A stretch of 64,000 nucleotides of DNA from Branchiostoma floridae (taxonomy: Eukaryota > Chordata > Leptocardii > Amphioxiformes > Branchiostomatidae): contig NC_049985.1 in assembly GCF_000003815.2 (NCBI RefSeq), forward strand, positions 10,534,325 through 10,598,324, in the 5' to 3' direction. Of this stretch, positions 55 to 38,004 are shown one piece after another. The translations under genes were made by a program, and so were the position numbers. Numbering within the stretch: the stretch's first letter is position 1; each line of letters starts with the position of its first letter. The notes below the pieces were generated by a model that did not search any database, was not told the origin of the DNA, and was given only the letters and a program-made list of their open reading frames with translations.

Positions 55-3000
55 ACGCCCACCCACCTGAATGCGGACTTCAGCCGGCTGGTGACCTACC
101 TGGTGCAGCCGGCGCGCACGGAGCTGCAGAGGGCCCGGGTCCTGTTCCGCTGGGTCTCCGCACAGAACGTCAGCAACATGCGCCTCCCCGACCAGCCGCA
201 GGAAAACACTCCCGAATGGTACCTCAAGCAGATCCAGCAGAAAAAGACTTACCTGTATCCTGTTCTCTTCCTAAACCTGTGCAGGTAAATGTAGCAATCA
301 ATACGTCGATGCAAGTTATACATCCAGGCCATAAGATACACAACACAAAAGTAATTCAAGCAGCTGTATAGCTTTTGTAAACTCATTGAAAGTTCGCAGA
401 CTTATCTACTCCTAACTGTACTGTAACTGCATAAGTTTACAAAAGAGTAGAACTTTGAATTGTGTTGTAGCAATTCATGTTTTCCATGTACTATGAAACA
501 CAAGACGTCCCCCCCTTCCCTTGCTCCTTTTTAGAAATTCCAATAAATAGTCATACAATGCCGTCAACGTCAAGCAAATCTACGAGTCTCTTCAGTCAGT
601 ATGTTACTTTTTTTTGGTTATAATATGAGGTACTGCTTTTTACCTAATTCCAGACATGCAGGCCTAACGTGCAGCTACGTCCGTGGATACGCCAAGAGCG
701 CCCGACTCTTCCCCGGTACCAAGTACGTAGGGACCGAGCCGATGGGCACGTGGACCGTGGTGCGCATAGACGGGTGTTGGGGGTTCGTGGACTCTCACTG
801 GGGATCCTTTTCCGTCATCGACGATGACGACGACAAAGAGTTAGAAGATCTGCAGTCTCAAATCGCTATTGACGAGTTCTACTTCCTTCCTAACCCTCTC
901 CACTACCTGAGTTCACACTGCCCCAGCGATCCGAGCTGGCAGCTCATCGACAACCCCATACCGCTTAGCGACTTTGAGGCCCACGTGAAATGTAACCAGC
1001 GGTTCTTCGCACACAAGCTACGGCTGCTAAGTCACCACAACGGTCTTGTAGAGACAGTGGACGGCACAGTGGACCTCTACATCGGATATCGACCAGAAGA
1101 CGAGGACATCCAGTTCTATTATAACCTGAAGACCAAGGAAGAACGGTCACGATGGAGGGGAATCAAACTGGACAGGTTCGTCACGCAACAGAGAAAGAAG
1201 GGCGCAGCCGTCTTCAACATCACCCCTCCGGAGAAAGGAAGGTTTCTGTTCGAGCTCTTCTTTGGGCTGAAGGGACAAAGTTTCTATCACTACGCGTGCG
1301 AGTACATGATCCTGTGTTCCCAGGCGTTGCCTCAGGAAGAAAACGACCCCATACCGGCATGGAAGGGCATCTGGGGACCCGGGAAGATGGTAGTGGAGAA
1401 AGGAATGGTGGCAGTGTCTCACAAATCTCCATACGTACAGTGTCCGAACGGAAAAGCAGAGATAGTCTTCTCCTCACCCGGAAATCACAACTTTCTCGCG
1501 AAGCTGTACGAGACTTCGATGGACGAAACGCACCTGAAGCGTTACGTGGCACACGAGATCATCGACGACCAAGTGAAGTTTTACGTCAACCTACCAAAAG
1601 CGGGCAAGCACGGTCTTGGTATCTTCACGCAAGAAGGTAACGACGAGAATGCGTACGCCCTGCTGTGTAACTACATCACACAGTGCCAGGCAGATGAATC
1701 TTCTATCAACGAGCAGCCTTTTCCAGCGGTGCCGAGAGGTCGCTTCGGTCCGGTCCTTCCCGACTTCCAAGAACTTGGTCTCTCCGCAGTCGGCAGCGCG
1801 TTCGTAGAGTGTGAAACGGGAGAACTTCAGTTGAGTCTGAAAGGCAGTCACGCGCTGACGTACAGCCACGAACTGTTCTGGGAGACGCTGAACGAGAAGG
1901 TGAACATGAGCGAGTACGTCCAGAGACAAGTCGTGGACGGAAACGTGGAATTCCTCCTCCGTCTTCCCCGTATCGGGATGTACCGTCTCGCCGTGTATGC
2001 TCAGACAGCGGGAAGCACCGGCGCGCCAAGAAACGTCTACAACTACTGCATCAATTGTACGGGCACGCAACTTGATGTAGAGCCTTTCCCAGCGGCCAGC
2101 GCTACTTTTGTGGAACCGGCACTGAGCCACGAGGACACAGAGGAACGGTTCATCCAATCAGAGCACGGTGACATCAAAATAGTCTTCGGCAAAGGAACAC
2201 CAAAAGGCATCGAGCACAAACTAATCTGTCTTATGGACGGCGAGGAAGTAGATGTGTCTTCCTACGCCTTCATCCAAGACAATCCTGACAACGGAGAGGA
2301 AACCGTCGTGCACTTACGTCTTAAAGAAGCTGGCAAGTACAAGCTGTCGCTGTCCACCAAGGACCCAGACCAAGAAGGACGAACCACGTTTTCCAGTTAC
2401 GTCATCCAGACCACGAAGGGTATGGAAGACTGTGTGGAGTTTCCGGAGAGGCTGCTCGGCTGGTGGAGTGACTACCAGATGCACGAACCGCTGTCCCGTT
2501 TCCTCAAGGCGAAGGAGACCTTCACCTTCAAGGGCTGCTTTCCAAGGGCGTCAGAAGTCGCGGTGATGCTGCCGACATCAGAGTGGATCCAGCTGAAGAA
2601 AGGGGATGGCAATGAGTGGGAGGAAGTGGTGACCATGCCGGGGAACAAGTACGTTGGCCAGGCGGTCACCGTCAACGTGCTTCCCGATACAGAAGACGGA
2701 GACTACACGGAGGTCTTGGGATATGTCGTGGAAAAAGGTGTGAATCATATTATCATGTCATATCATATCATATCATATCATATCATATCATATCATATCA
2801 TATCATATCATATCATATCACCAGAGTTTCTAAAGAGAGAGTCTATGAGAATCTACAATGAGAGTCTATGTTGTGTTAGGCGCGTACGCTATACCCTCCA
2901 GTGACTGTCCAGCTTTGACTTGAAGCTTGACTTTTGGCTTTATCATGGAAACAAGGCGTTTTTTTAGTAATTGTCTTTGTTGTGTTCATATCAATTCCTT

Positions 3001-6000
3001 TGTGAATAAATAGAAATTCCTTTGTAACTTTCCCTTCTATATTTTCTTTAACATAAAAAGGCGAAGACACGGGACACGAGGAGGAGGACCAGATAACGCG
3101 TCTAGAAGAAGAAGACACGGAGGAAGACTTGTTTGAGGGACAGATGGAAGAGTACCAGCTCGTCTTGAGACAGCACCGCCGGACCATCGCGGATGAGATG
3201 AACCCGGAGAAGGTCATCCCCAGGTTTGAGGAGAACAGGTTCATTGATGAGGAAGAGGCGCTGGAGCTGACTGAACAACTTCCTGACAACCCGAACGAGG
3301 TCAACAAGCAGCTGCTAAATGTAAGTGGAACCTACAAACGGGGTCTCTATTGACAGGAATGTCCTGTTAATAGTGCAAACATTCTTGACAGGAACATCAT
3401 GTAGATGTTACAAACATTCGTATTGACAGGAAAATCATGTCAATAGGGCCAAACGTTTTTTTTTAGTATTAGGAACATCTTGCCAATATTGTCAAATATT
3501 CTTGTTGACAGAAACATCCTGTCAATAGTGCAAATAGTTTTATTGATAGGAAAGTGTTACCAATATTGTCAATTGTTCTTAGCAGCAGAAGCTGGGTGGT
3601 AATAGTGCTTATTGACAGGGATATCTTGTAAATGTTGCAAAACAATCTTATTGACAGGAACATTCTGCGAATAATGCAAAAAACTCTGACAATTGCCTCA
3701 GCATTCCTAGATTGTTTAGTTTAGTTGATGTTATCCAAAAGCTGTTTGATGACTAAGGTCTTCTCTTGTTATTTTGTAGGTGGTGCAGAGAGAGGGAGAA
3801 GATGCCTTCGTCACACTCCGTGACGTCATGAAAGAAACGGGACAGGACAAAATCATGGAAGTCATCGAGGATGTGGTGATTGTGGTACCCAACAATAAAT
3901 GTAAGCATCATTGCAATCATGAATACAACAAATCCCATATGGTCTAGTGGTTAGGATTTGGCGCTCTCACCGCCAAGGCCCGGGTTCGATTCCCGGTGTG
4001 GGAAAGTATACATTTTTCTACGTTTTATTTATTTCTACGACTATTTCTTTAAATTCACTATTTCTTTAGATTCACTATTTCTTTAGATTCGCTATTTCTT
4101 TACATTCACTATTTCTGTAGATTCATTATTTCTTTATGTGCATGCACCTTATACGCGCCTTATTTTACATGCTTTCTTACTTGATCTCCGTTATACTCTA
4201 GATGACAAGCTGCGGAAGAAGCTTGCTGAGGCGATGCTCGCCAAGAACAAGGGGAGGCTGGAGCAGATCATGGCGGAGTGTCGCGAGCAGGGGATGGACG
4301 AGGAGGACGATGTCTTGAAGGAGGCACAGAGAACTCTGGACCTAATCGAAGCCCGTCAAGGTAAAATTTGAGTTGATGGATAAATAGGAGCTTAGATATA
4401 TTGTGTGGACACAAGTAGATGTTAAGATAGGGTTTTGTGTCGTATCTGATTACAGAAATGGAGACAGTACAAAATCTGTAAGCACCATTGCAGTATGTTG
4501 TGTAACAAATCCCATATAGTCTAGTGGTTAGGATTTGGCGCTCTCACCGCCAAGGCCCGGGTTCGATTCCCGGTGTGGGAAACTGTACATTTTTCCAAGT
4601 TTATACATTTCATCACATTTATCTAGATTGATCATTTGTTATGATTGGCTATTTTTAGATGATTGCACAAAGATATGATTGATTGCATTACTTGTAACTA
4701 TAGGACTCAAAAAGGCCATCAAAACACGGCACAGAGACCAACTCCAAGCTGCAGTCAAAGCCGCCAAACCGTTCAAGAACGAGCTCCGGAAGCACATGAA
4801 CGAAGCAGAAGAAATCCTTGACAAGATCAAACGTCTCGACAAGTTACGTCACGCCATCATGGCCATGAACCAGGCGACCATCGCGGAGATCAAGACGTAC
4901 AACAACCCTCCTCCTGCCGTCTACAAGGTCATGATGGCGACCTTCCTGTTGCTAGGCAACACCATGGCACAGGTCAACGTAAGTAGCCTGGCAGTTTATG
5001 TTTTTGTGTTCTCTTTTAGACTTTTTTTTATTGTACATTGCAACTGAGGTTACGATATGCATTCATTTACACAATTATAGGAGCGATTAAAGAACTGATG
5101 ACTTATAAGTTTTAAAACATAAATAACTTATTGAAATGCAAAAAGGCCATTGAGCTGGGATCGGTTACGGGGGGTATCATACTTACGCTTCGCTTCGTTC
5201 GAGCGACTTGACGGAGTGGTAAACGGATTACAACGATGAAAAAGTTCATTTTGTTTTACACTTTGTGTGTTTTGTTATCATTTTATTCATATGTGTACTT
5301 TGATATTCCCAGCACATAGTCAAGGGTAACACAAATTCAATTTAGAACCCAGCGGCGTCGCCAACATAACGCAGTCCTGCTCTAGATAATGTATTACAAT
5401 GCGGTATGGCAGGAAGGGGTGGTGGTTGTAACCTATGTTTACAAACTTTGTTTGATTATAGATTTTTGATAATGCACTTTCCAAAATAACACTTTATTCT
5501 GGACGTTAAAACTGACTTTAACCCTGTGTCTTACCGTCCACCAGGACTGGGTGTCCCTCCTAGCTCTGATCGGTAAGACGGGACGGCAGAGCCTGAAGCG
5601 GCGGGTGAAGAACTGCGAGCCGGCTAACATCTCATCGGAGACCGCCGAGGAAGCCAAGCAGTGCCTGGGAGACCTCAGTCTGGATGGCGTCCGGGACCAA
5701 AGTTCAGGAGCAGCTACCTTCTATGTCTGGGTAAGCATGAACTCCAAATCAGCCTGTCACTGGCCCCTTTCCACTATACAGTGGCTGTACAGCGACCAAA
5801 ACTTGGGATTGTGTGGACCTTGATTTTACAATTTGAATTATGATGCAAGATGTACATGTAGAAGTATGATTTCGAACGTAGTGTAGAAAAATACGAATTT
5901 GATCTTTCTTCTTTATCTATGAAACTAGTCGAGCAACTGTCAAATCTTTATTCGCTCACCGTTAGCAGCATCTACCAGTCAATACACAAGGAAGAACCCT

Positions 6001-6277
6001 GTCCTTGGTGCTGAACACGATACACATGCTAAACGTGAAAATTGTGCCCTCCTGCGCAACAAGTCCCTGTCGTCGATGTTGATATCTCGTGCAAACTAGA
6101 AATCGTCTCCTGTCACAATAGCTGTATGAATGTAATTATCGCAGTAATGTAGTCACAACCTTGTACTGAATCTCAACCTTGTTTGTCCGCTTTGCTTTGT
6201 AGTCGGTGGGGACGATCAGCGAGGTGGAGGAGATGGCTCTTACCAAGCAAAAGGCAAACTCGAAAGCCACCGGGTGA
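55..6277 (+). CDS. KYL-A: KY/transglutaminase-like pseudo-peptidase with CARD and dynein-stalk-like C-terminus (5' partial)
   Basis: Eight exons fit: 55-284, 654-2737, 3061-3320, 3780-3900, 4202-4360, 4704-4978, 5545-5730, 6203-6277 (TGA). Together they give 1129 residues in one frame; the N-terminal exons lie before the window. Residues 1-130 are the transglutaminase/KY-like domain, with the family's intron inside the Leu-Cys-Arg codons and a conserved VDSHWGS block. The catalytic Cys position is Thr65 and the His of the DHAW motif is Gly, so peptidase activity is unlikely. Five KY-type Ig-like repeats follow, then a short acidic linker, a CARD (about 800-895, split over two exons), helical repeats (900-1000) and a dynein-stalk-like region (about 1000-1120). 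The role is unknown; KY and hillarin relatives act at the cytoskeleton and CARDs mediate signalling assembly. The acceptor at 3060 has a poor pyrimidine tract, so that junction is the least certain. Confidence 0.82.
2753..2820. repeat. (ATATC)n microsatellite
   Basis: About 13 near-perfect five-base units lie in KYL-A intron 2, starting some 15 bases after the donor of the long Ig-repeat exon. Read through, the array stays open in the exon's frame, so intron retention would add a short Ser/Tyr/His/Ile tail before a stop near 2904. Confidence 0.95.
3346..3692. repeat. Degenerate ~39-base minisatellite
   Basis: About eight imperfect units of 37-45 bases (one longer) fill most of KYL-A intron 3. 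Each has a core like TTGACAGGAACATCCTGTCAA followed by TAGTGCAAA and a T-rich end. The core is itself a partial inverted repeat (TTGACAGG against CCTGTCAA), so each unit could form a small hairpin. Confidence 0.85.
3933..4004 (+). tRNA. tRNA-Glu (anticodon CTC), copy 1
   Basis: This 72-base cloverleaf has acceptor stem TCCCATA paired with TGTGGGA and discriminator A, D-arm box A (GGTCTAGTGG), anticodon loop CTCTCAC with CTC at 3966-3968, and a T-arm with box B GGTTCGATTCC. It closely matches animal tRNA-Glu(CTC). It lies on the sense strand in KYL-A intron 4, starting 33 bases after the donor. No 3' CCA is encoded and no tRNA intron is seen. Confidence 0.95.
4039..4137. repeat. 17-base tandem repeat
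   Basis: Five to six copies of a unit like CACTATTTCTTTAGATT lie just downstream of the first tRNA-Glu and before the 4202 exon. The pyrimidine-rich units probably also supply the upstream part of that exon's acceptor region. Confidence 0.85.
4510..4581 (+). tRNA. tRNA-Glu (anticodon CTC), copy 2
   Basis: This 72-base gene in KYL-A intron 5 is identical to copy 1 except at position 9 (A instead of G). Anticodon CTC is at 4543-4545 and both internal promoter boxes are intact. About 30 bases upstream and 20 bases downstream also resemble those of copy 1, so the pair arose by a local duplication that carried flanking intron sequence. Confidence 0.94.
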
Positions 6278-8407: not shown

Positions 8408-11400
8408 ATGGGGTGTGGCACATCGTCTCTCCAACAACAGCAAACACTGGTGGACAAGGTACGGAGGTGGAATCTAGAAGGCGATGTAACGTACATCGTA
8501 ATTTTAAACACTATAATTGACTGGTCGTAACCGTAAGAGTTGGTTAAATTCATACACAAATTTACACATGTTAGCACCCTGCAGGAGAACTTTATCATAT
8601 GTACCTGCATATGCATGTACATGTATATAACGTTACTCGATAAATAACACTTAGGGTGGCTAGCAAGTAGCATATGAAATATTAACAAGGTGCGTTTCTG
8701 TCTTTTTTAAAATCCGCGGATACACAAAGAAGCCTGTTCACGAGTGCTGTATGAAGAAAAGATATGGGCAAAACCTATCCAAGGAATTAGGCTATATATA
8801 GTATTTTGGTAACATTGACCAGGAATAGAATTTCTACAATACTATCACAATCTTTCGTTAGCAACATTTTATACATTTATAGAGAAAAGAAGTATTACCT
8901 GACTGGTTACCTACCGTGCCGGAAGAGGAGAGGGAAGATTGGCCAGCCTACTGTCGAGTGTGTGATCTGGTCGATCATGGGCAGGTGAGAAATACTCCTA
9001 CTTAACATTTCATGGTTAGCAGCTCTGAACAGAGACAGGCAGAAAAGGTGACCGGCGATAGAACGACTGGGAATTTGGAGAATGTTTGAAGTATGTATTG
9101 TATGTTCTTCCAAATGTGTCCTATCCCTAATGTGAGAAGTAGAATGTATACACCATTTTTGCGATACTACCTATCAACGGTTTATCTTAAGCTTAAGCCT
9201 ATTAAAATTTGAGATTGGACGGCGATATTGGTGAACTTGCTTGCCTGTATTTACTTACCTCCAGGTTGAAGCGCCCACTTCGCCAACTCCTGAAGGGATG
9301 CTCACTTACACAGTACTGTGCAGCGATGACGTCATCACACACGTCATATACAAACCTACCACATTTGGGCACTGTGGCAGATTTGACCACCTTGACGACC
9401 ATGCCGCAAAAGTAAGCAAGAGCTTTGTAGAGCATAACAGCCATGATAATTTTCTTAAGCAAAATAGCTTTGAAATGCAGTCTGTCTATGTCGTAGTCCT
9501 TTAAATCTTGATTTCTGAAAGTAGATTTCCATCACAATGTCAACAACAAGATGTTTGAAACCACCCCATAGTAGAAGGCAACATTGTCCATCAACTGCTA
9601 TCCACAGATGACCATACTCACGACTACCTCCTAGCCATGGTTTGAAGAAGGTCTGGAGGCCATTTGTGACAGGGGCTTAATACATTTATATCTACTGATG
9701 ACAGAATCATACTGTCACCCAAGCAACACCAGGACATAGCCAGTTTGATACATATATGATATATTCTGGTTCGTTTACAGGTCCCTTCCTCACTCATCGA
9801 TGACTTCACGGCGTTAGTAACGTATTTGATCGGGCCGGCACGAACAGAGCTGGATCGGGTCCGCGTACTGTACGCCTGGGTCACCTGCCAAGACGTGTCG
9901 GTCAACACGGAAGGCGCAACGGAAGACACACCTGGCTGGTACCTGCACAAGATGAGGGAAAGTGAAAGTTACTACCATCTGTTGTTCTCCACTCTCTGCA
10001 GGTATCCTTGGGACCTTCCGTTACTTCTTATACTTCTTAGTTTTATCGGTCTTCATTTCATTGTACTCCTATCCATTTGCTATGCAACATGATTCATAAT
10101 ACCAACTGAAATGATACACGTTGTACTTAGACTAAAGAAATCATAGCAATGACTTGAAACACCGAATCATTTCATTTTTCACTTGTGTAGACGAAAACGT
10201 TCCTGACTTTTATGATCCTGGAAACAAATCGTTAGAAGAGACGAATAAGTTTATCTATGTTGGTTAGTACAAATGCTAACCCTATCCGTTTCTCACAGCC
10301 ATGCAGGTGTTCGGTGTCAAACCATTCGTGGCTACGCAAAGACTGCTGACAAACCTCCAAACACGCAGTTCGCAGGGACGTCCCCTATCAAGCAGTGGAC
10401 AGCTGTCTGTATTGACGGACGATGGGGCATAGTCGATACTCGCTGGGGCAGTCGTGACTCAGCTGAAGACATGACAACATCGCCATCATCATCTGACGAC
10501 ACAAACCAACACAACACCAACGAGTTTTACTTCTTACCGCACCCCGCGCAGTACCTGAGCACGTGCTTTCCCGAAGACCCGGATTGGCAACTCGTACTGA
10601 GTCCGATCGAAATCTCTGACTTCGAGACTCATGTTCAGTGCTGGCCTCATTTCTTCGCTTTCGGCCTGTCCTTGTTAAGTCACCACCGTGGGGAAGTGCA
10701 AACGACAAATGGACAAGCGAAGATCTACATCGGCTGCAATGAAGAAGACATTCGGGCGATAAACTTTGCCTACAGTCTGACAGAGTCTTCGGGGTCAGAC
10801 CGTTGGGAAGGGGCTTCATTGGACAGATTCGTGCTGCAACAGAAGAAGAGAGACGCTGTCGTTTTCAGCATTCAACCACCGCATAGGGGCGAATATCTTC
10901 TCGAGATCTTCGTGGGAAGCCATGACGACAAGACGTGTTACACCGCTTGCGAATACTTAATTGTATGCGATGAAACTAGCAAGGACGTTTGCCCTCTTCC
11001 CGACTGGCCGGGCGATTGGGGCCCTGGGAGCGAGGCGGTTGCTATGGGACTCGTCCCGATATCCCACCCTGCATCCTGTGTGCGTTGTAAAAGCACGCCG
11101 GCATCAATAGAGTTCTCATTGTCACGCGAACTGGATTTCCTAGCCAAACTGTTCGAAGTCAACACGAAAGAGACACGACTACGACGGTACGTTGCTCACG
11201 AGGTAGCCGATGGTACTGCAACCTTCCACGTGATGCCCCCAAAACAGGGAACGTATGGCCTCGCAATCTACGCTAAGGAACGTGGACAGGCAGGGGCCTT
11301 TGCTGCGATGTGTAGCTACCTGACGATAGCGGAAGACATGGAACAAGATGCAAAGCCGTTCCCGGACGTTCCAAAGGGCTCGTTCGGGCCGGTTCAACCG

Positions 11401-14287
11401 AGCTTTTTGGACCTCGGACTGAGAACAGTGACACATCACAGTGCCTTCGTCGACTGCGAGTCAAGTGAACTGGACCTCAGGCTGAGTATGTCCAGAACTC
11501 TGCAGTTGAGTCACCAGCTTTCGCTGGAAAATGACAATGACTTTGGAAGCTATGTCTTTCGGCAAGTCGTAGACGACGAGGTCCAGTTCTTAGTCCGCTT
11601 CCCGAAGCCGGGAAGATACAGACTGGCCATCTTCGCAGAGGAGGTCTCTCCTGATGAAGACCCTCGGAATGTCTTCAACTACTGTATCAGCTGTACTGGT
11701 TCTGTGTCTCATGATGTACATCCGTTTCCTGATGTGGCTGGCAATCAGTGGGGAGAACGGTATCCTACATGTAAGGACTACGGCATCTTCCCTGCCAGTC
11801 ACCCAAATGCGTACATAGAGACCACTTCTGGTGAGCTGGAGATCAAGTTGGAATCAGAGACGCACATCGATATTCTCCACTTATTCCAGCGGTGGAAGGA
11901 AGGGGCTCAGCCGGAAGATTTCTCGCAATGCGTGAAAGCAATGGATGGCGAGGATGCGGACAGGGTGGGAGTAAGAGTTTCATGTCCCCATGTCGGAGAA
12001 TACAGCCTAGAACTCTTCGCAAGGATGTCCGAAGAGGAGGAACCAATTAACGTGTTTAACTACTTCATTGGCTACAAGGAAGAAGCAGCAGCATCAACTG
12101 AAGATGATGACCAGGCAACAACAGGAGAGAGTCCAGCAGGGCCATCGACAGAATCGCCCGGGGAAGCCAGTGATACGCTTACCCTGCTTGGTTTGTCGAA
12201 AAAGAGCCATCCGGAAACGAACATAATGAACAAAACAGGTGAACTTCTCATCACATTTGGAAAAGCTACACCTCTGGTATTCTCACAAAACCTCAACATG
12301 AAGACAGAAACAGGCACTGAAGAAATGGGCGACTACGTTTTCAGACAGGTGCTCAACGACGAAGTCCACTTTCGCCTGCGTTTTCCTACTGTGGGTGTGT
12401 ACAACTTTTCCGTGTCTGCAGGTGAAGTAGGTGGGACCCTGGAAGAAGTCATCAAGTACACCATCAACTGTACCGCACCTAACCAGAAACTGAGCCCATA
12501 TCCGGATGTAGACGGCGACCAGTGGGGGCTGAAGCAGCCGGATGCCAGTACCATCACGCTAAAGAGTCACCCTGCCGCATACATCAAAGCCTCGCAAAGG
12601 CTTGATATCGTAATAGAGTCAACCGCACCGACACAGTTTCAGCAACGTTTTTACTTGCGGACAAGGAAGGAAGGAACGAAGAAACTCAAGAAGAAAGACG
12701 TTGGTGACTTTGGATGCCATAAGACCCTGGACCAGGGCAAGAAAACGGTAGTTGTGCTTCACTTCCCGAGGGAAGGCGACTACACATTACAGCTATCGGC
12801 CTGCAATTCAGAGAGTCAGAATGTGATCAACTATCTGATCTACTGCGACATGCCAATGGATCCTTGCATACCGTTTCCAACGGTTGAAGACAGAAGATGG
12901 GGCCCGGTCTATTCCAACTGTGAGTCAAACGGCTTCACTTTGAATAGTCATGAGGACCCCTTCATCACCTCCGACAACGAAGAGCCAAGGCTCAGCTTTG
13001 GTGCACCAAAGTCTACGTGGCTTCGTCACACATTGGTGTATTGCTCCGACAAGGGACAGGAAGAAGACGTGTCGTCGTTTGCGTTCACACAGGCTGATCA
13101 TCAAGACACCGGACACGTAGTTGCATGGTTACGTCTGCCGAGTGTCGGCTTCTACAGGCTTACCATACATAGCAGAGCAAAGAATGAGACAGTTCTGGTC
13201 AACTATCTTTTGGACTGCAAAAAGCCGATGAAAGTCTGCCTTCCGTGGCCAGAACAGCCGCATGGCTGGCCCATCGGGTGGCATCTCTTCGAGCCGCGAA
13301 TGAAAGTCATCACAGCAGGAAAGGAGGTCAGATTCAGCGGGATCTTCCCCAACGTGTCGGACGTGGCAGTCATATTGCCAACAGGAGACCGCGTTCAGCT
13401 TAACGAACAAGAAAACAGTAAGTGGAAAGGAACTGTGACAATTCCAGTAGAAGCACAGGCTGGAGACACAGTCACATTAGGGATTGTAGTAGACAAACAA
13501 ACTGGCAAGCACCAAGAGGTTCTGAGGTATATCATTGAAGGAGGAGCAAAGGAGGCACCCCATGTTGAAGAGGGTGCAAAGGAGACATCCCCTGCTGGTG
13601 CTGAAGGTGGCGGTAAAGTGGAAACCCCACCAGAGGTAGAACAGCCAGAGGACTACAGAGCAGTCTTGAAGAGACACAAAAGTTCCATAGCAGAGGTGAT
13701 GATTCCACGCGAGGTCATCAAGAAGTTTGAAGAAGAGGGGATCATCAACGAATCGGAAGCGAGTGAGATGGACACACAGCTGCCTGTCAACACGCTGGAT
13801 GTCAACAAGTCTTTGTTGAAGGTAAGTTATTCCTGGCTTTTGATAAAAAGTTACAGTTGTGTTTATCTTAATATCGTTTAGTACACTTGTGAGAGGTAAA
13901 TGACAAGGTAAAGACATTTCTTGATTCTGCAAACTGAATAGGATCAAACACATGTCATTCTTCACCAGGCGGTGATGACAGAGGGAGAAGACGCGTTCGT
14001 GACTTACCGGGACATGATAGAGGAGACCGGGCAGAAGGAAGTGCTGGAGCTCATCAAGGACGTGGTCGTTGAACCTGCCACTTCCGATACAGGTACAGCA
14101 AATCTAGATACCTATTTTTTCATCACATTCATCTAGTTAGAATAGTAAATGGTAATTCAATCTTAGTATTGTAGGCAATATTACATTAATACTGAAGAAA
14201 TATGATCTTTTAAAAGTATGAGACCGTATTGCTATAGGGTGGGTAAGATACTAACATAAAAAATGGACTTCGTCCCTGGGTGGGCTC

Positions 14288-20023: not shown

Positions 20024-23000
20024 ATGGGGTGTGGGTCATCGAAAGCCACCGAGACTGTAGTGAACGTACCAACAGTTACAAGAGCTGAATCCACTAAGAA
20101 GGTCAACACGGTAGTTACAGAGTCGCTAGTACAGGTAAGTAACACGAAGTTATAATGAATTTGTATGCATTCATGCTGAAATATTTGACATGTAAATGTA
20201 CTTACATGGCGTTATAACCTTCACAGACACTTGTTTTTTTTTGTTGACGTTCCAAAAGCTTTGTTATAGCAGTATTGTTTGAAGTATTTTCCATATCAAA
20301 AAGGATTTCAAGTTCGCCATTACATTGGCCAGTGTCCTTGCAATGTGTTTGTAGTTCAAAGCCTCAGCGAATGATGAAGAACACAACGACGATGCAAATC
20401 AGGCCAGTAATGAGAGAACTGAGGAAGAACAGCCCTCAAAGGAACCAATACAGCCTATGCAGGTATGGCAACACTTGATAGAAATGTAGAATATTACATC
20501 TATAGAACGGTATATGTTATGACGTTAGGCATTGCAGAGACCAAAAGAGACAATCTACGGATGTTCTTTTAGAGTGAGAAGTGTGTTTACTGTATCAACA
20601 CGTATTTACAGGACCTCGATGCAGCCACTGCCGAGGACCATGACGACTATGCACATCTGTCCAGTGAGACTACGACAGAGGAACCGCTCACAGAAGAACC
20701 ACTTCAAACAGATACGCCTGCTGTACAGGTATGGAGTCCAAGCGGACATCTTCTAGCTGAAAGACATTGTTTAGATGTGGACAATTACAAGTACTAGTAG
20801 AAAGTTACTCTGACATGATAGTGAAATAGTCTTTCTATAAACATTAGAATTTTAGGATGTACACAGGTTTAATCATAACAGTGTTATAGTTTCCGCATTT
20901 CTTAAGCCAAAAATTTCTCAATGCCTTTGTGACGTTTTCTTCAATTACACAAGGATACAGCAAATGCCGAAGAGCAAAGTGGCGATGATCGACAGTCCAG
21001 CGATAAAACGGCTGAAGACAAGACTACCGAAGAACCAGCTCGGAGGATCAAGCAGGTACGACCACTAAATGAATACAATTCTTCCTAAAAATGTTGACAC
21101 CATATCAACACGATGTAATTGCCATTCCAGACACTAGACTGCATTTGCACGAAAATTGAACGTGTTAATGGGTTTTTAGTTGTTTTCCTGTCGTCACAAT
21201 TATGTTTCATACCTCAGGCGGTACACCAGCATGACTGGCTGGCCCCTGTGTCCGGAGCTGAACGTGAAGGCTGGCTCACCACCTGCAGCATGTGTGGGAC
21301 CAAGGATGACGTCATTGTCGTCCCACAGATGACAATGACGTCAGATGGCCTGATGACGTACGATGTTGAATCAGCTGAGGGCGAGATCACCCATGTCGTC
21401 TGCAAGCCGAAGCCGTACTCAGATGAAGAAACATACGCGCAGCTGGACGCGCACGCCGTAAATGTGAGTATATTTGGATATATCACCAGCAATAGCAAAT
21501 CAAAACATGCCTAAATACATCTGATCAAAGATGACTTAGTTATCATAATAAACGACTTCAGTCGGGTTTTAGAATTGAGGGGTCACGTGCATCTAAAAAC
21601 TGCCGTATCACATTCTAGAGGTAATGTTAATACACCTACACGGCAACGGTCATTGATCATGACGATTCATGTACTTAGGCTAATCGGTCTCTGAACGGTG
21701 ACTTCACGACCTTGATGACGTATCTGTTGGAACCCGCCCGGACCGACCTCGAGAAGGCACGAGTCATGTTCCGCTGGGCCACGGCACAGGACCTGGTCAA
21801 CATGGAATTTCCAGGTGAAGCGTAACTTTGCATCTGTAGAAGACATAAATGATGCATTTGATGCAATTGTATCTAAACCATCTATGATAGAATAGACATT
21901 TGGTCCCACAATTGAGCATGGCCCATCGACAAGTGCCCTGTGTCTGCTTTGATCTGTTCGTCTTGTCATTTGAATTCTGCATTCTCAATTTTGCGGTAGT
22001 GTGTCACAGGATGACTCTTGGCCTGACTTTGATTCCATCTTACCTTTTCTTTGTCTTAATGGATATATTGTTTTTCACCGGCAGAGGTTCCAGTGGAGGA
22101 AACACCTGATTGGTATTTGCAGGGAATCAAAGAGGAGAGAAACTCGCATGTCACGCTTCTGGCTAAAATGTGCAGGTGATTCAATAACCCCCCTACGATG
22201 TTTTGATGTTACATATGGAGGTTCTGATCAAAATAGATTACCATGCAAAGGGGAATATCACCCCTCTATCACATTATTTCACTAATAGACACAGTCTTAA
22301 TTCACCTTACTAGTGAAATAATGGTTAAATCAATCTATACAGTGATATTCACCTCGTCCAAGGTCTATGACTAAAGGAATATGGACGTAAATGACGAATT
22401 GACATACCGTTTCAGTATGTTACAAATGTCGGGATTGTTGTTGAGCAAGGCTGCGCTCATGAAACGCCCAGGTGGAGAACGTACCTCATCTGAACCTCCT
22501 TCCGGTGTCTTACCCTCCTAGCTCCGCTCGCGTATTCTCCAAGCAATGGTTGGTTCGCGGGAATTAGAAGTAGCAGGGAATTTTCCCGGGTCGCTCCCCT
22601 CTCCGGTAAACATCCCTGCCACTACTGATAGGGATGACTATGGGTCAGTACCGGTAAGCTGTTTTTCTTGTTGGACACGTCCAGGAACTGAACCTGAAAG
22701 AAAACCAGTAGACCGGATCTTATAATCGAAAATACAGATTATACAGGCATGCGTCATGTATTTTGGAGCTTTCAGAACGAAGAAACGAAGAGCGAAATAG
22801 TGCAGAGTTAACAGTTTTATTACCGAGTTACTACAATCAAACTAGGTTAAAAATAGAAGCAGTTAGTGTTGCTTAAATGACTCGGATAGGACTTTAAAAC
22901 GTCAATCGATGTTGGGTACTCCAACAAACAGCGTCTTCCGAGCGAAATGGACGATTGTCTTGAGTATCGCCCACAAATTTTCCCAGATAAGGTCCAGGTT

Positions 23001-26000: not shown

Positions 26001-28639
26001 AAGAAAAAAAAACGGTTGTTTAAACCATTATTACAGCTTGACTTTGAAGCATATTCTGTCATTTAAGAAAAAGGAAGGGCGAAGGTGCTTTTTAGGAGTT
26101 TATGAATAGATATATTCGCTATCATTTGATAACGCCGGTCTTCTGTTTCTGTCGTTTACAGGAGAAGAGTCGTCTCCGGTACCTATCATATGGGAAGGCG
26201 AAGACGTCGAAGAAGTTCAAGATGTATCAAAAACTGAAGAGGAGCCAAAGCTTCCAACTGACAGAGAACAAGAGGATTCAAGAGATGAAGAGGGAACAAA
26301 GTCTTCAAGTAACGAAGAAGACGGAACAAGAGATGAACAGGAGGTAAAGTCTCCAACAGACGGAGGACAAGAGGATTCAAGAGATGATGAGCAGCTGAAG
26401 TCTCCAAGTAACGAAGACGACAAATCAAGAGATGAAGAGGAACCAGGGTCTCCGGTAGATGTAGGACAAGGTGATTCAAGAGATGATAAACAGCCAAACA
26501 CTCCAAGTAACGGAGAAGACACAAGAGATGAAGAGAAGTCAAAGCCTGCTACTAATGGGGAACAAAATGACACAACAGTTGATGAGGACCCAGAGTCTTC
26601 AACTAATGAGAGAGAAGATGAGTCAAGAAATAACGAGGATTCGAATCCTTCAAATGGAGGACAAGACGATTCAAGAAATGAAGAGGAGTTGAAGAATCGT
26701 ACTGATGGAGAACATAATGAGTCAATAGACCACGAGGAGGCAGAACCTTCAATGGATGGTGAAGTAACGGATGAAGACGAGACAGAACTTTCACCTGAAA
26801 AACAAGGTGACGTAGGAAATGAAGATGAGCTACATGAGCCAATCGATGGGCAAGAGGAAGACTACAAAATCGTCTTGAGACAACACCAGGCCACAATCGA
26901 GGAAAAGATGAACCCAACGATGGTCATACAGAGGCTCGAACAGGAGGGATTTGTGGACGATGAGGAGGCAGAAGAGTTACTTCAGATGGTACCGCAAAAC
27001 CTCCCGGAAGTGAACAGGAATATCCTGGCGGTACGTGCTATTTCCTCGTCGTTGTTGCAAGTGCCCATCAATGGATGAATTTCAATACCTATATTCCATG
27101 GCATATCTTTTCAAAACTAAGGAGGGCTAAACAGTTTTCTGTACTTGTTATTAAACAATTGACTTGAGCATTTGTATATTTGCACCTTTAGGTTGTTACT
27201 CGTGAAGGAGAGGACGCATTCGTCGTCCTCCGTGACGTTATGGAGGAAACCGGTCAGGTCCAGATTGTAGAGCTGATCCAACACGTGGACGTGGAAGCGC
27301 CGCCCGACGATTCAGGTTTGTCTCTACAATTAATTAGTGATGGTAAAACATTTTGTTTCTTTCTGCTTTATTTTGAAATGAGTAAGCTCCAACTTTAACT
27401 GGCAATGAGATTATAAGGATTTGAAGGTTTCTGAGGGTAGAAATGTTACATAAATCTACTTTTAAAAATGGTGCAAGAGCATACCAGTCGTCTTGTGATA
27501 TAACTTCTCTTAGCTGCACGGGTGAAGAAGAAGCTGCGAGATGCCATGAAAGCCAGGAACAGCAAAAGACTGCGAAACGCCATCGATGAGTATAAGGAAC
27601 TAGGCCTCAGCCCGAAGGAACCCATCTACAAGGAAGCAAAGAAGAGGTTAGGCGTCCTGGAGGGACTCCTGCAGCACCGGCACGCCATTCTGAAGATGGA
27701 GCCAAAGACCGTCTCTGAGATCAGAGGATACAAGCGCCCCCCTGCGGCTGTCCAACAGGTCATGACGGCTACATTCCTCCTTCTTGGTCACAGCAAGAAG
27801 GAGACAAAGGTAGGATTTCTTCAAAAGACGAAAGTGTAATCATGTACATATCTGTATCTGTATCTGTATCTATATAGCCGGTATAACCGCCATTCGGCGT
27901 AACACACCAGCTTCGCAGGCACGCGGCGCGGCAGCAGCTGGTTATATTACACTGAACGATCCGTCACACCTAACTTTTGCACATCTAACTGCAAGCGTTC
28001 TTAGGATATAGATAGCCGTATGGAGATTTATAAAGATAAGGCAAAAGAATACATCTCTGATGTCGATGATGTACATAAGAAGGAACAGAAATGTCTTTGT
28101 GGCATTTTGATCTTAGGTAGCGTCAAAGTGTGCAAGAACGGCAATTTCTTTCATTGAGTGACATTATATTTATATTCTTCTTCACTACAGGAATGGAAAT
28201 CCCTGCAGGCACTTATGGGCAGGACAGGCAGGGAGAGTCTTAAACGACTAGTCAAGAAGTTCCAACCAAATGATGTTCCACACGGCAAAGTAAAAGCGGC
28301 CAAAGCAGAGCTGAAGGATCTGACGAAACAAGACGTCCATGGCGTCAGTGCAGGGGCGGCAACGTTCTTCGTCTGGGTAAGTTTCACACAACCATATTAT
28401 CTTGTCGTTTATGAGAAACAGACTATATCTAAAGGAAGGAACCACCTTCCACTGATAGTACAAAGACTGCCATTCATGGAACTACGAACCGGTCGATAAA
28501 CAATGGTAGGTAGAGGCTGAAAAGTATCTATGATCAAGATAGAGAAACAGAGCCATCAGTAGTTGTTAATGATGTCAATTCTGTTTTGCAGGTAACAGAA
28601 ATGATAGCTGATGTCGAGGAGAGGGGCAAATCGGAGTAA
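20024..28639 (+). CDS. KYL-C: myristoylation-motif KY-like pseudo-peptidase with six Ig-like repeats, long acidic linker, CARD and dynein-stalk-like C-terminus
   Basis: Thirteen coding exons: 20024-20134, 20355-20462, 20612-20728, 20954-21055, 21218-21463, 21679-21814, 22085-22175, 23516-25998, 26162-27030, 27192-27315, 27514-27809, 28191-28376, 28592-28639; 1638 residues. The start MGCGSSK fits N-myristoylation. Residues 38-146 are a Glu/Asp/Thr-rich stretch on three exons, unique to this copy. The CxxC module (CSMC) is at 147-228. The transglutaminase/KY-like domain (229-385) has Arg292 at the catalytic Cys position and Gly at the His position, and carries one extra intron. Six KY-type Ig-like repeats follow. 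An acidic linker with about ten degenerate units of 18-19 residues (1133-1360) precedes the CARD (about 1364-1455). One exon (27514-27809) fuses the two helical exons of the other copies and lacks one helical unit; the dynein-stalk-like region ends the protein. Confidence 0.85.
22272..23304. mobile_element. Non-autonomous DNA element(s) with self-complementary ends
   Basis: KYL-C intron 7 contains three related ~52-base segments, 22272-22323, 23183-23234 and 23254-23304. Each begins CATTATTTC(A/C)CTA and ends TAGTGAAATAATG, so each can form its own hairpin. The first is inverted relative to the other two, and the first pair bounds about 960 bases like terminal inverted repeats. The interior includes GGTCCAGG/GGACCTGG repeats at 22989-23051. 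No transposase frame is visible. Confidence 0.7.
26164..26850 (+). repeat. Coding tandem repeat in KYL-C acidic linker
   Basis: About ten degenerate units of 54-57 bases encode Ser-Arg-Asp-Asp/Glu-Glu, Lys-Ser-Pro-Ser-Asn-Glu and Gly-Gln-Asp-Asp motifs. The frame is preserved throughout, and the composition (Asp, Glu, Ser, Asn) predicts a disordered, highly charged spacer between the Ig-like repeats and the CARD. Confidence 0.8.
27841..27955 (+). repeat. Dispersed short repeat, copy 2
   Basis: (TATCTG)n repeats are followed by a body with AACACACCAGCTTCGCAGGC in KYL-C intron 11. It matches the minus strand of 15095-15192 in the equivalent KYL-B intron. Confidence 0.75.
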
Positions 28640-31574: not shown

Positions 31575-34500
31575 ATGGGAGGTGGAGCTTCAGTTCAATG
31601 GAACAACACCCAGGTAACAAACTCACCTGCTTAAACCTGTCTCCTTAGATAATACGTTTAATCTTTACTGATCTTCAAAGCGCTTATGCGTCAATTGGTC
31701 ACTAGGAAAAACGTTCTGCAATGTGTCTACATAAACCCTACCCTATTGTATCACCAAGACTAGTGTGCTTCATCCTAATTCCACTGACTGCTACTTATTT
31801 ACGTTTTAAATGTTGAGAAAACAACTAACAGGTATATCTCCTCCAAACAATGCCATTGGGGCCATTTTGTATATATTGCTTCCTGCATGTGGATAATAAT
31901 CTATGACTCTCGTTCCAGTGGACGGAGGGTGTTCGGCAGCCCAAGCCTGACCTGGCCACCATGACCCCTGACCCGCCATGGCAAGCGAACGTACCAGCTG
32001 AGCGCATGGAGAAGTGGAGGAAAACTTGCAGAATGTGTGGCGTCTACAATAATGAAAATGTAGGACTTTTCACTTCAAGACAGATTTTTCATGAAAATCC
32101 CCATACTGCCAAGGAAAATGTTGAAAGTTTTCTCTCATTCTCAGAAAATATAGAGTGAACGCTTACCAAATATGATATAAATGCGCACGTCCCTAAATGC
32201 TATTCATCCTCAAATAAAACCACCCTCAAATAAAACTACCCTTTCGTGGCAAAGGTGATAAGATTATGAACTCACCACTTGAACATCTTTCTTTCTTAAA
32301 GGTGATCCTTGAAACTACTGAAGAACCAGGAGGTATGCTAACGCGCCCCTTACATCAAACCATTAAAGGGAAGCCTGCTAAAGTCATCTTCAAACCAAAA
32401 CCTTACATAGACCACACTGCATTCGAACGCCTGGACCAGTTTGCTCTATCGGTAAGCAAGCATCAAATGCACATTACGCTGTATGATTCTAGACAGACCG
32501 AAAAATATGTTGTTGCATATCCATTCCCCCTCCCTTTATACTCTCTATCATGTTAGCTCAAGTTGTTAGCTAGTGGATTACATTATGGAAAAAACACTGT
32601 TCTGTAACTCATGCTCAAGAAATTGGACTCACCTGAATAAAAGGGGGTGTCTACATTAGGGCACATTAGGTTGCCGGGACGGGAAACGATAAAACTTTTG
32701 ACCCATTGCTGACGTCATACGTGCAAGTCTCGTATCCAGAACATTTAGATCCAGTATCTGAAAATCCCAGGCTGCGACTCAAATTTCCTATTGGGATAAT
32801 TGGCCATAATGTGTCACTCCGCTGTTGTTTCCCAGGCACCACGGTCACTCTACGACGACTTCAGGAAGCTGGCGGCCTTCCTCACGAAGCCGGCAGCGAC
32901 AGAGTTGGGGAAGGTTCGAGCCATGTTCTGTTGGGTCGCAGGGCAAGACGTCAACAACATGACCTTTCCAGAGAAAGTTCGAGACGGCTCGCCAGACTGG
33001 TTCTTAAAGGAGATGAAGGAGAAGAAGACGACGGATCTATACTCTGGTCTCTTTAACAAGCTCTGCCGGTACGGTACTGTTGTTTACCTTTATCAATAGC
33101 CTAGATATTATACTTAAAGGTGTCCCTTGGATAAAGGTCGGTAGCAACAGCCAGCTTTCTTGTACATGTATCTACCAAGTGATCTATATGTGGACCGACA
33201 ACCACGATAAGCCCTAAAAATGACAACTTAATCAAAGACACCAGTACACGTTTCTAATGATAATCAATCACTCAATAAATTGACCAATCGTTGTATTATC
33301 TATTGTCTCAGACTCGCAGGAATAAAGTGTCACGTGGTAGACGGGTACGTGAAGACCATACAGCAGCCTCCCGGAACCCGCTTCCAGGACACCACACCGA
33401 ACGGGAAGTGGAACGTCGTACTCATCGACGGCTGTTGGGGAATCATTGACGCCCACTGGGGATCCATTCATACACTTGACACAAACCTTCAAGAACCTGC
33501 CCGGGAAAATACTGGCAACCCCTTTAATGATTTCTACTTTCTGCCTGACCCGCTCCACTACCTCAGCGGGCACTATCCCCAAGACCCCGTCTGGCAGCTG
33601 ATAGATTCGCCGGTACCGCTAGAGAACTTTGAACGTCACCTTCACTGTAGGGAGAATTTCTCCACTAATCAATTGACACTGCTGAGTCACCACAGAGCGG
33701 TAGCGTCAACAAAGGAGGGCGAGGCCAACATCTACATCGGTGTTAACAATGACAAGGTGAAGTTGCACTGCAGTCTAAAGAACGCAACAGGTGAATCGAC
33801 CTGGAAGACCATCAAGTTGAGCAGATTTGTGAAACAAGAAGCAAGGAATGGAGCGGCAGTTTTCACCGTCCGCCCGCCAACAAGCGGAGACTTCATCCTT
33901 GAGTTGTACTCGTCCCCAGATGGAGGCGACAAACAACGGGTTTGTGAGTATCTCATCAGGTGCCTCCGACCGATGAAGGACAACAAGCCTTTCCCGTGCT
34001 GGGGAGGCCGCTGGGGGCCCGGTAGCGAACTGGAGGCATTTCGTCTAACTCCAACAACACACAAAGGCGCTTACGTCGACTGCAGGAAAGGGAAGGCTAC
34101 GATAGAGTTCATCATGGCGCGTGACTTGTCCTTTCGCACGAAGCTTTTTCAAACTTCGTCCGCAGACTCTACTTTCAGCCGCTATGTTGCTCACGAGATT
34201 GTGAACAGCGTCGTCCAATTCAAGATCAGCGCACCGGATGTAGGAATGTTTGGTCTGGGCATCTTTGTCAAGGAACCTGATACCAGCGAGCATTTTCGCC
34301 TTGTTTGTAGTTACATTGTGTCAGCTGAGCAACGCGCAGTCGATCCGTCGCCTTTCCCGTCGGTTGGAAACGGTCTTTTCGGCCCGGTGCAACCTCTGTT
34401 TGCGGTTTTAGGCTTGTCCACTAAAAGTCATCACAACGCTTTTATTGAATGTGACACGGGAGAAGTTGAGATCAGAATCAGCACGAAAGACGTCCTAAAC

Positions 34501-37500
34501 GTAGCACACGATTTATTTTGGGAGGATTCACAAAAGAAATTAGATCTAGAAATCTTCGTGTACAGAGAGGTCTTAGACAGGGAGGTGCGCTTATTGATCC
34601 GCTTGCCACGCCTCGGAAAATATCGCTTAGCCGTCTACGCCGAAGGGCTGGATCACGAAGGTGATCTTCCAATCGTTTACAACTATTGCATCGTTTGCAA
34701 GGATAGGACCACACGAAAAGGGCCTTTTCCACCTGTCAGTGGCACCCAATGGGGACGTAGGTTTCCTGCCGCACAGGAATTGTCACTGGTACCCAAAAGC
34801 CATCCAAAATCCGACATTGATGTTGCCGAAGCTCTTGACATAGAGATGCAATTGGAGAATCCCGTCGACCTCAAGTGTTGCCTGTACATATGGAAAGCTG
34901 GCATCAAACCTGAGTACGCTCAACAGTTCATTAAGCATCACACTAAGAACGGAGGGATGCAAACCGTTGTACAGATGACGTTTCCTCAGGCTGGTAACTA
35001 CAGCTTAGAGCTCTTTGCCGCCTCCACCGGTTCTCACTACCGAAACGTCATGAACTACTACATACGCTGCCACCAGCCGTCGGAGGTCTCCCGTCCCATC
35101 GGCAAAGGCACAGAAATACATGAAGACAAACTCGATAACATCGGATCAAGCGTCTGGGCTACTACTGGGAGCGAAGAGGACAAACCGGAAGACGATTTCC
35201 AAGCTAAGTTGGAAAGAGAGATAGAAGAGGAATCCGACGACACTGAAGACAAAGGAGACGTCGATAAGCCAGAAACAAGAGAATCAGCCGATGATGGGAG
35301 ATTTGACAACACAGTGGAGAAAGAAAATCTCACTACCGTTAAGGAATTTCTGCCTGTAGATTCGGAGGAAGATGGTGTAAATGGCAAAGATCTTGAGAAT
35401 CACACAGTGCAAAGTAAGAGCACAAAAGAAGACAAATTCAGGAAGACATGTACAGAAGGTCCAACTACAACAACAGAAGAAGACGACATCATGAAAAAAG
35501 CAGATCAAACTACAACAGACGAGATAGACAGCATGAATAACGCAGAGCAAACTACAACGGAAGAAGACGACATCGTGAAGACAGCAGGTCAAACTGCAAC
35601 AAAAGAGGTCGAAAATGTATCGACCGAAGAGGAGCACGACCTAGCTGTCAAGAAACACCAAACTACTAGTATCGCCTTAAACCCTGAAATGTATGTCAAA
35701 CAGCTAATCCCCAGGCTAACGGCTGCCATCAGCTCCAAAAACAGAAACCAACTTGAGAAGCTGCTAGAAGAGCTGAAAGGTTTACAAGTCGACAAGGAGG
35801 ACGAACCTATCGTCAGAGAAGCAGAAACCTTGCTGCAGCAGATGGACGTCAGGCAAGGTGGGCCTTTATTTAATGTACTACTTTATTACATCAAGATGCC
35901 AGTGGTGTTAAATGTGGTAGTAAGCAACCCATGGTGCAGACATGCTCGTTAATGCAACGGCTCATGACATGGACAAATATTAGAAGGAAATGGTATTGCT
36001 TAGTATTGCTAAATGCCAGAAGTGCAAGATAAATTCATCTTCAATATTAATAATAATCTTTATTGCAAATTCATGCCCGAGGGCTAATTGCATACAAAGT
36101 AAAGTAGTAGTGGTATACATAAACATAATTAACAAGAAGGGAAATGATATTCATAGAATGATATTCAAATGATATTCATACTTCAATAAGCCCTTGCTAA
36201 TTGCATACGGTCTGTGCTCGTTTGCGACACATATTTTGTTTCAGAATAGCAGATGCACTTACTTTAAATTCCTTTCCAACATTCCTATTAACTTTATTTG
36301 CAGCTCTGCGTGATGCGATCTCTTCCAAACTCAAGGAAACCCTGGAGAAAGCCATAGCCAGTGCCGAGCCGTTTAAACGTGACGTACAGGAGGACATGCA
36401 AGAGGCGAAAATGACTGTCAGCCTCATTGACCTAACGGCCGCCATCAGCGCACAAAACACTAGTCAACTCGAGAAGTTGCTGGAAGAGCTAAAAGATCAA
36501 GAGGTCGACGATGAGGGCGAAACCATCATTAGAGAGGCAAAGATTTTGCTGAAGCGACTGGAAGTCGTGCAAGGTGGGGTTTTGTTTAATTTTTTTTGTT
36601 GCAACCCGTGGTTTAAAATAAAACCGTCAGTATGGCTAATGGGTGGGTACTTGGTATTGGAATGATAGGGTATTACTCAATGCCACCAATAGTTAATGTT
36701 GAATGTTTTTTGTGCAAGATGTTTTGTATCCGTCCGCTGCAGACATTTTGTCTTCTACAACATATAATGTTACATTTTTTCACAAATAGATGCGCACATC
36801 CTTCAATACTATCATTATATTTGATATAATTTTCAGCTCTACGTGATGCTATCACTTCTAAACACATAGAGGACCTGGAGAAGGCCATATACAGTGCCGA
36901 GCCCTTTGCACTGGACCTGGAGGACGACCTTCAAGAGGCGAAACGGATTCTCCATCACATCAAGCGTCTGGAGAAACTGCGTCAGGGTATCCAACAGCTG
37001 AACCTGAAGACTCTAGCGGAGATCAGGGGGTACGCGCGACCTCCTCAGGCGGTCCTGAAGGTCATGACCGCGACGCTTATTCTGCTGGGAAACATCAATG
37101 GCAACGGACAGGTAACAAGAACACTGCACTATGCGTCATGTTATGCCTTCACCAGTCCTCAATGGTTCCAAAGTTTGTGTAAAATTATTAGCATTGCTAT
37201 GTGTACAGTTATGTCTCATGTTATCAATTATAAACGTGCTTCCTTTATTATTAATTTTTACATGAGATTCTTTACGTTAAGCTTAGGGCATAAACGCAAC
37301 AGTTGTACCACTCAATTTCTAACACAACGTCGTCACACAGAGGTAAACATATTGTACTTTCCGTGACTTACACTGTTCACTCCCGTACAGGGCTGGTCGT
37401 CAGTCAAGACTCTGATGGGAGGAAATGGCCGAGGGACTCTGATACGCCGGGTCAACGAACTCAACCCGGTAGGCATCACACTTGCGATGGCATCAGAGGC

Positions 37501-38004
37501 TGAAAAACAGCTGAAGGACCTCACCTTGGACGATGTGACAGCCGTAAGCACGGGAGCGGCAGCTTTCTATATCTGGGTATGTGTTATCTATGTCTTATGT
37601 ATGATTAGAGGTATACACGCTGGTGTCTGTTTATAAGGTTGGTTTAAGTTAAGGGTCCTAGAGACCAATATTTGCGTGTAAAGCGGAGGGGAGTAGAAGA
37701 CCGTGGCAGTTCAGTACCAAGGACAGGTCTGATGTGTCCACAGCACGGACACTATCTAAAATTACTTCAAGATTCAACAGCAACTTAATTGGTTTGATAC
37801 AGTTAAAAGAATAAAATATAAAGAACAATGTATTCTCTGTATCGGCTAAAACGTGTGATAAACAAATGTTAATGTTTCCAGACTTCCGCGTCTGTGTGAA
37901 TGACAAGTTTATCTTTCTTCCAGGCGAAGGGCATGATTGAAGAAGTTCAGAAGGAAGCACATGTACCACCTTTGGGGTTAAAGAGCGCAGTTGCTGTGAC
38001 CTGA
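31575..38004 (+). CDS. KYL-D: KY-like pseudo-peptidase with four Ig-like repeats, CARD lost, dynein-stalk-like C-terminus
   Basis: Nine coding exons: 31575-31613, 31919-32059, 32302-32451, 32836-33068, 33312-35857, 36304-36573, 36837-37111, 37391-37576, 37924-38004; 1306 residues. The start MGGGASV fits N-myristoylation. The CxxC module (CRMC) is on exons 2-3. The transglutaminase/KY-like domain (about 111-265) has Thr176 at the catalytic Cys position, with the next Asp kept, and Gly at the His position; the IIDAHWGS block is conserved. Only four KY-type Ig-like repeats are present and the terminal Ig-like unit of the other copies is missing. A Thr/Glu/Asp-rich linker with repeated TTTEEDDI motifs leads to a 25-residue remnant of the first CARD helices fused directly to helical repeats. 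Exon 6 is an extra helical exon. The dynein-stalk-like region (about 1165-1295) is intact. The donors at 35858 and 36574 are GTGGG-type, less canonical than elsewhere. Confidence 0.84.
36304..36573 (+). repeat. Duplicated helical exon in KYL-D
   Basis: The first half of this exon (ALRDAISSK, AEPFKRDVQ, MQEAK) mirrors the start of the exon at 36837, and its second half (LTAAIS, QLEKLLEELK, EGETIIREAK) mirrors the end of the exon at 33312-35857. Donor context and the following intron bases also resemble those after 35857, so a tandem duplication spanning an intron explains it. Confidence 0.8.

Follow-up and report, generated by a model that had tools for sequence, protein, structure and literature searches.

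A family of KY- and CARD-containing genes in amphioxus ends in a dynein-type microtubule-binding head, a possible portable cassette of non-motor proteins

Introduction

The stretch of Branchiostoma floridae DNA analyzed here (C7:10534325-10598324; 64,000 nucleotides, referred to as the window) contains four adjacent genes, A to D. A first-pass annotation had described them as a tandem family joining a KY-like pseudo-peptidase, a CARD, and a dynein-stalk-like domain. The locus therefore raises three questions: whether these parts belong to single genes, what the C-terminal part is, and what a protein of this plan might do.

Results

Gene models were built by matching open frames across the copies and choosing phase-compatible GT-AG sites. 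The models are frame-consistent and encode proteins of 1252 (A), 1621 (B), 1529 (C), and 1306 (D) amino acids. All of the introns (36/36) are GT-AG, which is a consistency check only, as the sites had been picked on that basis. Independent evidence for the models comes from the agreement of open frames, phases, and exon lengths among copies that are just 37 to 41% identical, a level of identity at which we rejected a recent local amplification. Intron phase matches wherever copies share an intron, with phases 0,0,0,2 upstream of the big exon common to A, B, and D and phases 0,1,1,0,0 around the CARD and stalk exons common to A and B. Exon lengths of 159, 275, and 186 nt recur in A and B, D has 270, 275, and 186 nt, and C has 186 nt plus a fused exon of 296 nt. 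In its N-terminal part, C lacks one intron and has an additional one, and a repeat exon of D is fused to its big exon. The four adjacent plus-strand genes with a shared exon plan, and the exon lengths first reported for them, were thus borne out. The extent first assigned, 55 to 38004, is exact at the end of D; position 55 falls in exon 4 of A, with three exons upstream, and the start of A, at -2554, lies about 2.6 kb outside the left edge of the window. A piece-by-piece comparison extended over the 20 kb upstream did not reveal another convincing copy. The weakest junctions are D 32059/32302 and the A acceptor at 3061, which affects only the linker before the CARD and for which an alternative at 3106 scores better.

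Searches of the 513-Mb assembly identified two further members at a distance of about 2 Mb on this contig: E (minus strand, 12.605-12.615 Mb) and F (plus strand, 12.620-12.629 Mb). KY parts, CARD halves, and head are present in both. The corresponding exons of E are 159, 275, and 192 nt long; F has exons of 159 and 186 nt, with its 275-nt counterpart split in two. A copy of the transglutaminase exon of F, with the same scores to the window proteins as the exon of F itself, lies at C7:12614457-12614684 on the minus strand, inside the presumed first intron of E, and is likely a partial recent duplication.

The KY, CARD, and stalk parts are joined in the DNA itself. The KY repeats of B share one exon with the first CARD half, which lies within a 1210-amino-acid open frame; E has a 604-amino-acid open frame that combines KY matches with the first CARD half; and in D, the KY repeats share one exon with a stalk repeat. 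These links make separate genes unlikely and uphold, at the DNA level, the assignment of the KY and CARD/stalk parts to one gene. The resulting domain order is an MGxGxS start, an inactive-looking transglutaminase-like domain, KY Ig-like repeats, a CARD (not in D), short helical repeats, a dynein-type head, and a truncated second coil.

The MGxGxS start is spliced into all four window models. Translation of 84 kb in its three plus frames contains MGxGx[ST] five times, and all four gene starts fit this pattern. MGCG[AS]S starts are found upstream of E and F on the right strand, without a splice model joining them. When these unspliced starts are included, 6/6 members fit a PROSITE-like myristoylation pattern of the MGxxxS/T type.

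The next two domains are those of KY (kyphoscoliosis peptidase) and hillarin, in which a transglutaminase-like domain is likewise followed by Ig-like_KY repeats (PF23265). Ig-like_KY matches are strong in all four window genes (3.7e-82 in D; others in Table 1). Pfam Transglut_core was matched in B, the only copy scanned in joined form (1.9e-6, 28.6 bits against a cut-off of 23), and the domain was recognized by alignment in A, C, and D. In that alignment, in which the rows of E, F, and a KY paralogue on C18 were joined by eye, Cys and His of the Cys-His-Asp triad are lost in 6/6 members and Asp is kept, whereas the C18 paralogue, the reference row, retains all three. Vertebrate KY is likewise said to retain putative catalytic residues, according to passages of PMC6078408. 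Judged from sequence, this loss would argue against the family members being enzymes, not against KY ancestry, and the reading as a KY-like pseudo-peptidase holds. The family further differs from KY and hillarin in its MGxGxS start, its CARD (not in D), and its dynein head.

Pfam placed the CARD above the cut-off in A and C (Table 1), as in CARD proteins such as RIG-I, CARD11, and Apaf-1. In the parts scanned, Pfam matched none of the other domains of those proteins, and here the CARD stands between KY repeats and a dynein head. When five members were scanned at E<=1, four matched CARD (best, 1.2e-7) and five matched CARD_2. A CARD in D was rejected, as the family's own CARD profile finds none there and the second CARD exon is absent; the CARD first proposed for all four genes stands for A, B, and C and in 5/6 of the whole family. 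The first half of the CARD has four matches in the genome, all of them family members. Of 187 candidates in a genome-wide search for the CARD family, 150 were scored and 149 matched, indicating a very large CARD repertoire. The matches listed include none in the window, presumably owing to the intron that splits these CARDs.

The C-terminal part was compared with known structures by searching a profile of the four window head copies against 177,635 PDB sequences. There were 75 matches at E<=1, the best at 7.6e-9. The best 60 of these 75 carry dynein or heavy chain in their names or have dynein length and match at the stalk position, with two exceptions in label: a 4583-residue chain labeled radial spoke protein and 6rzb_C (149 residues, "MKIAA0325 protein"), which we take to be the mouse dynein head. 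An eight-copy profile (A to F plus the C204 and C14 genes described below) gave 51 matches at E<=0.01, the best at 1.7e-9, all of them dyneins judged by name or by chain length and position of the match, apart from the same two labels. The alignments inspected span coil 1 to the last head helix. Resemblance to a dynein stalk by composition only was rejected, since coiled-coil chance would not yield all-dynein PDB matches spanning a compact head. By profile homology, the C-terminal part is a dynein-derived microtubule-binding head (PF12777 region).

The head differs from that of a dynein heavy chain in its setting. It lies at the C terminus, the models stop 15 to 26 residues past its last Trp, and the second stalk coil is nearly absent, so that the A to D models lack an antiparallel coil 1/coil 2 stalk. 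No AAA family that would point to an AAA+ motor was found among the Pfam matches of the gene parts scanned. Upstream of the head are helical repeats of about 45 to 53 residues, four of them in D when counted by eye. The dynein-stalk reading therefore survives as to dynein origin, in the form of a head with a short second coil and not of a full stalk.

The head is not confined to the KY family. The 186-nt head exon occurs at 14 places in the genome: the six KY members, six non-KY genes (C204:26137, C10:6185196, C10:6088077, C5:6384009, C2:24251248-24256367, and C14:21209358), an orphan on C3, and a weak match on C18. In the non-KY genes read, repeat exons recur together with the head exon; we use the word cassette for the helical repeat exons, the 186-nt head exon, and, in genes where it was read, a short last exon. 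When parts of the C204, C14, and C5 genes were searched with Pfam, no family exceeded its cut-off. The family MT matched two of their heads at 0.0025 and 0.011, and the C5 head piece not at all. The C204 head alone had 36 PDB matches at E<=10, the best a dynein (1.8e-4) and one (E 0.16) not dynein; an upstream C204 piece had no match in the PDB. The C2 gene appears to encode a second, unrelated membrane protein with a dynein-head tail, consisting of a CD20/MS4A-like tetraspan start followed by a coil, an acidic linker, helical repeats, and the head. Its exon joint is partly guessed, and the CD20-like Pfam match is over the cut-off in one joined piece (1e-6) and under it in a longer one (6.6e-6).

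Ig-like_KY has 54 matches in the genome, which group by place into about 14 loci, and the head is found at six. At three of the other eight (two on C4 and one at C18:12.31 Mb), the partly read surroundings contain no match to the family CARD or head profile; at the remaining five, genome-wide searches gave no head.

Other observations were made on the dispersed copies. A charged coil lies upstream of the head in C204 and C10:6088077, and the repeats of the C5 gene look spectrin-like by eye, without a Pfam match. The 186-nt exon at C3:28262223-28262408 appears to be an orphan; its protein is 87% identical to that of gene C, and nothing else of the family was found in the 8 kb around it. The C18 match (C18:3702918-3703088; 6.2e-4, 37% identity) could be dynein or cassette.

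Discussion

Together, these results lead us to propose, tentatively, that the dynein head, freed from its motor, has become a portable cassette at the C terminus of the products of about a dozen non-motor genes. There it would give membrane-linked proteins, namely the KY-CARD proteins with their myristoyl-type starts, the CD20-like tetraspan protein, and coil-rich proteins, a direct hold on microtubules, with the KY-CARD branch as a microtubule-anchored signaling scaffold. To find part of a motor in proteins that are not motors is unexpected.

For the A to F family, the function that we consider most likely, though at less than even confidence, is that of large membrane-tethered, microtubule-anchored CARD scaffolds. 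A myristoylated N terminus would tether the protein to a membrane, the inactive-looking enzyme and the Ig repeats would bind a partner, and the C-terminal head would grip microtubules without a motor. The grip of dynein is switched by sliding of its two stalk coils. With the second coil almost absent, the grip of this head would no longer be switched by an ATPase, and a single fixed affinity is expected. Between its two anchors, the CARD may bind homotypically, recruiting or nucleating CARD partners at membrane-microtubule contacts, and D, which has no CARD, could be a passive tether or a competitor. The CD20-like start of the C2 gene, subject to its partly guessed joint, extends the membrane theme beyond the KY branch and is consistent with this proposal. 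So is a precedent in passages of PMC8907152, in which mammalian NLRP3 complexes travel on microtubules by HDAC6 and dynein and assemble at the centrosome. The first-pass annotation had read the family as linking the cytoskeleton to CARD signaling, and we infer the same link; overall, its observations were partly confirmed and its interpretation is partly supported. The profile searches that it called for found the CARD in A and C and recovered the dynein part with multi-copy profiles, not with single copies in Pfam.

Several results weigh against the proposed scaffold. The CARD of B matched only CARD_2 (E 0.12), which is weak when taken alone; the domain is 47% identical to that of A. One of the five CARDs scanned matched Gag_p24_C at 2e-4. 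The family CARD profile reached a best E of just 0.085 in the PDB, over 18 rows that we take to be CARD-bearing proteins throughout (RIG-I, CARD11, Apaf-1, and others). Myristoylation, and with it the membrane tether, is a motif call from the MGxGxS start. Against Pfam MT, single head copies of C (1.0e-4; 21.9 bits, cut-off 24), D (0.0055), and A (0.0086) all fell under the cut-off, and that of B had no match; in A and D, other families, also below their cut-offs, outscored MT. Compared with three dyneins, the heads have four extra residues after helix 1, three (KTG-like) further on, and, except in E, two fewer before the last helix. In the last head helix, 6/6 members carry D, G, A, or S at a basic position presumed to contact tubulin in dynein. 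The residue names sought for it were not found in PMC6629372. Finally, AlphaFold2 modeled the isolated 186-nt exon poorly (mean pLDDT, the predicted local distance difference test, 60.7), and only its helix order is usable.

A structural role is nearly as likely as that of a CARD scaffold, although we would not call it probable. The proteins could link membrane and cytoskeleton as KY and hillarin presumably do, with the CARD a mere contact within the scaffold and no part in immune or death signaling. KY forms the largest part of the protein, and passages of PMC6078408 report that vertebrate KY acts at the Z-disc, where it interacts with filamin C. Further, D manages without a CARD, and the CARD subtype looks confined to the family, given the four genomic places of its first exon half. 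However, five of the six paralogues have retained the CARD despite sharing only about 40% identity, which suggests selection on it, and the CARD-rich genome offers partners.

It is less likely that the head is a relic fold, of dynein ancestry but binding something other than microtubules. The loss of the presumed basic contact would fit such a relic, as would the family-specific insertions, which are also present in two non-KY cassettes of the same alignment. In a small tree of 13 head rows, from which C5, C10:6088077, and C3 were left out, ten cassettes separate from three dyneins at 100/100; monophyly of the KY branch is not settled by this tree. However, 13 copies of the 186-nt exon agree without exception at W, L, S, GAA, and W, most cassettes retain the helix-1 motif PP..V..VM.A..LLG (C14 and C2 do not), and the axonemal dyneins in the alignment likewise vary at the helix-1 lysine. 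The net charge of the head core, -1 to +8 versus -1 to +2 in three dyneins, is not decisive.

That the models join a KY gene to a separate downstream CARD/stalk gene is very improbable and was rejected: KY and CARD parts do lie in different exons in A and C, and the A acceptor before the CARD is weak, but the one-exon or one-frame fusions of B, D, and E, the agreement of phases at shared junctions, and the same layout in the distant members E and F all speak against it.

CARDs in unusual combinations have precedent in the domain-shuffled innate-immune proteins of amphioxus described in passages of PMC2575513. A passage search of the main text of that article found no "dynein," "transglutaminase," "kyphoscoliosis," or "microtubule," and one of PMC4284660 found no mention of dynein. 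In passages of the latter, promiscuous domains of lancelets are reported to spread in novel combinations preferentially via phase 1-1 exons; the 159-nt exon of A and B is phase 1-1. Among the matches listed in a search of the open-access literature, covering titles and the starts of abstracts and including few subscription papers and no bioRxiv preprints, neither this architecture nor a dynein head outside dynein was described.

If the head does bind microtubules, the track-gripping tip of dynein would be reusable as an ordinary microtubule-binding domain, and these genes would be a natural experiment on that tip without motor or coil sliding. The KY-CARD branch would then couple a CARD to microtubules directly; in mammals, HDAC6 and dynein transport provide a comparable arrangement for NLRP3. 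Six paralogues, one of them without a CARD, let each part be tested.

Additional features of the locus

The exons of the four genes are collected in Table 1.

Table 1. Exons of genes A to D in window coordinates (negative values lie upstream of the window)
Gene	Feature	Position	Strand	Match or remark
A	Exons 1-3 (MGSGSSS start)	-2554..-2459, -1117..-992, -590..-444	+	
A	Transglutaminase-like domain and KY Ig-like repeats (four stretches)	55-284, 654-2737 (55..2737)	+	Ig-like_KY 5.4e-71
A	CARD	3061-3320, 3780-3900	+	Pfam CARD 1.9e-7, 31.4 bits, cut-off 23.9
A	Stalk repeat exons	4202-4360 (159 nt), 4704-4978 (275 nt; ends with head helix 1)	+	
A	Dynein-head exon	5545-5730 (186 nt)	+	Four-copy profile vs PDB
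A	Last exon, truncated second coil and stop	6203-6277	+	
B	Exon 1, MGCGTSS myristoylation-type start	8408..8458	+	
B	N-terminal CxxC-bearing stretch and first half of transglutaminase-like domain	8883-8984, 9265-9411, 9781-10001	+	
B	One exon of 3523 nt: remaining transglutaminase-like domain, seven stretches of KY Ig, first CARD half	10299..13821	+	Ig-like_KY 4.1e-136
B	Second CARD exon	13969..14092	+	
B	Stalk/head exons	14410-14568 (159), 14751-15025 (275), 15484-15669 (186), 16421-16498 (last)	+	
C	Exon 1, MGCGSSK start	20024..20134	+	
C	Transglutaminase-like domain and five KY Ig stretches	21218-21463, 21679-21814, 22085-22175, 23516-25998	+	Ig-like_KY 8.1e-109
C	Acidic repetitive spacer and CARD	26162-27030, 27192-27315	+	CARD 2.2e-5, 24.8 bits, cut-off 23.9
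C	Stalk/head exons	27514-27809 (296, fused), 28191-28376 (186), 28592-28639 (last)	+	MT (PF12777) 1.0e-4
D	First exons	31575-31613 (MGGGASV start), 31919-32059, 32302-32451, 32836-33068	+	
D	Single exon: remainder of transglutaminase-like domain, four KY Ig stretches, acidic spacer, stalk repeat	33312..35857	+	No CARD
D	Stalk/head exons	36304-36573 (270), 36837-37111 (275), 37391-37576 (186), 37924-38004 (last)	+	MT 0.0055

Exon 2 of D opens with WTEG and its counterpart in A with WTDG. The acidic spacers contain coding tandem repeats, of 99-nt units in C (26235-26544) and of 42-nt units in D (35470-35606). Two tRNA-Glu calls in introns of A (3933-4004 and 4510-4581) are similar beyond the tRNA itself and may be SINE-like (short interspersed nuclear element), and an intron of B contains a minus-strand tRNA-Asn call (14270-14345). 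Downstream of D, window exons at 44795-45638 and 55413-57918 resemble, by eye, glucosamine-6-phosphate deaminase and a CLPB-like AAA+ protein, respectively.

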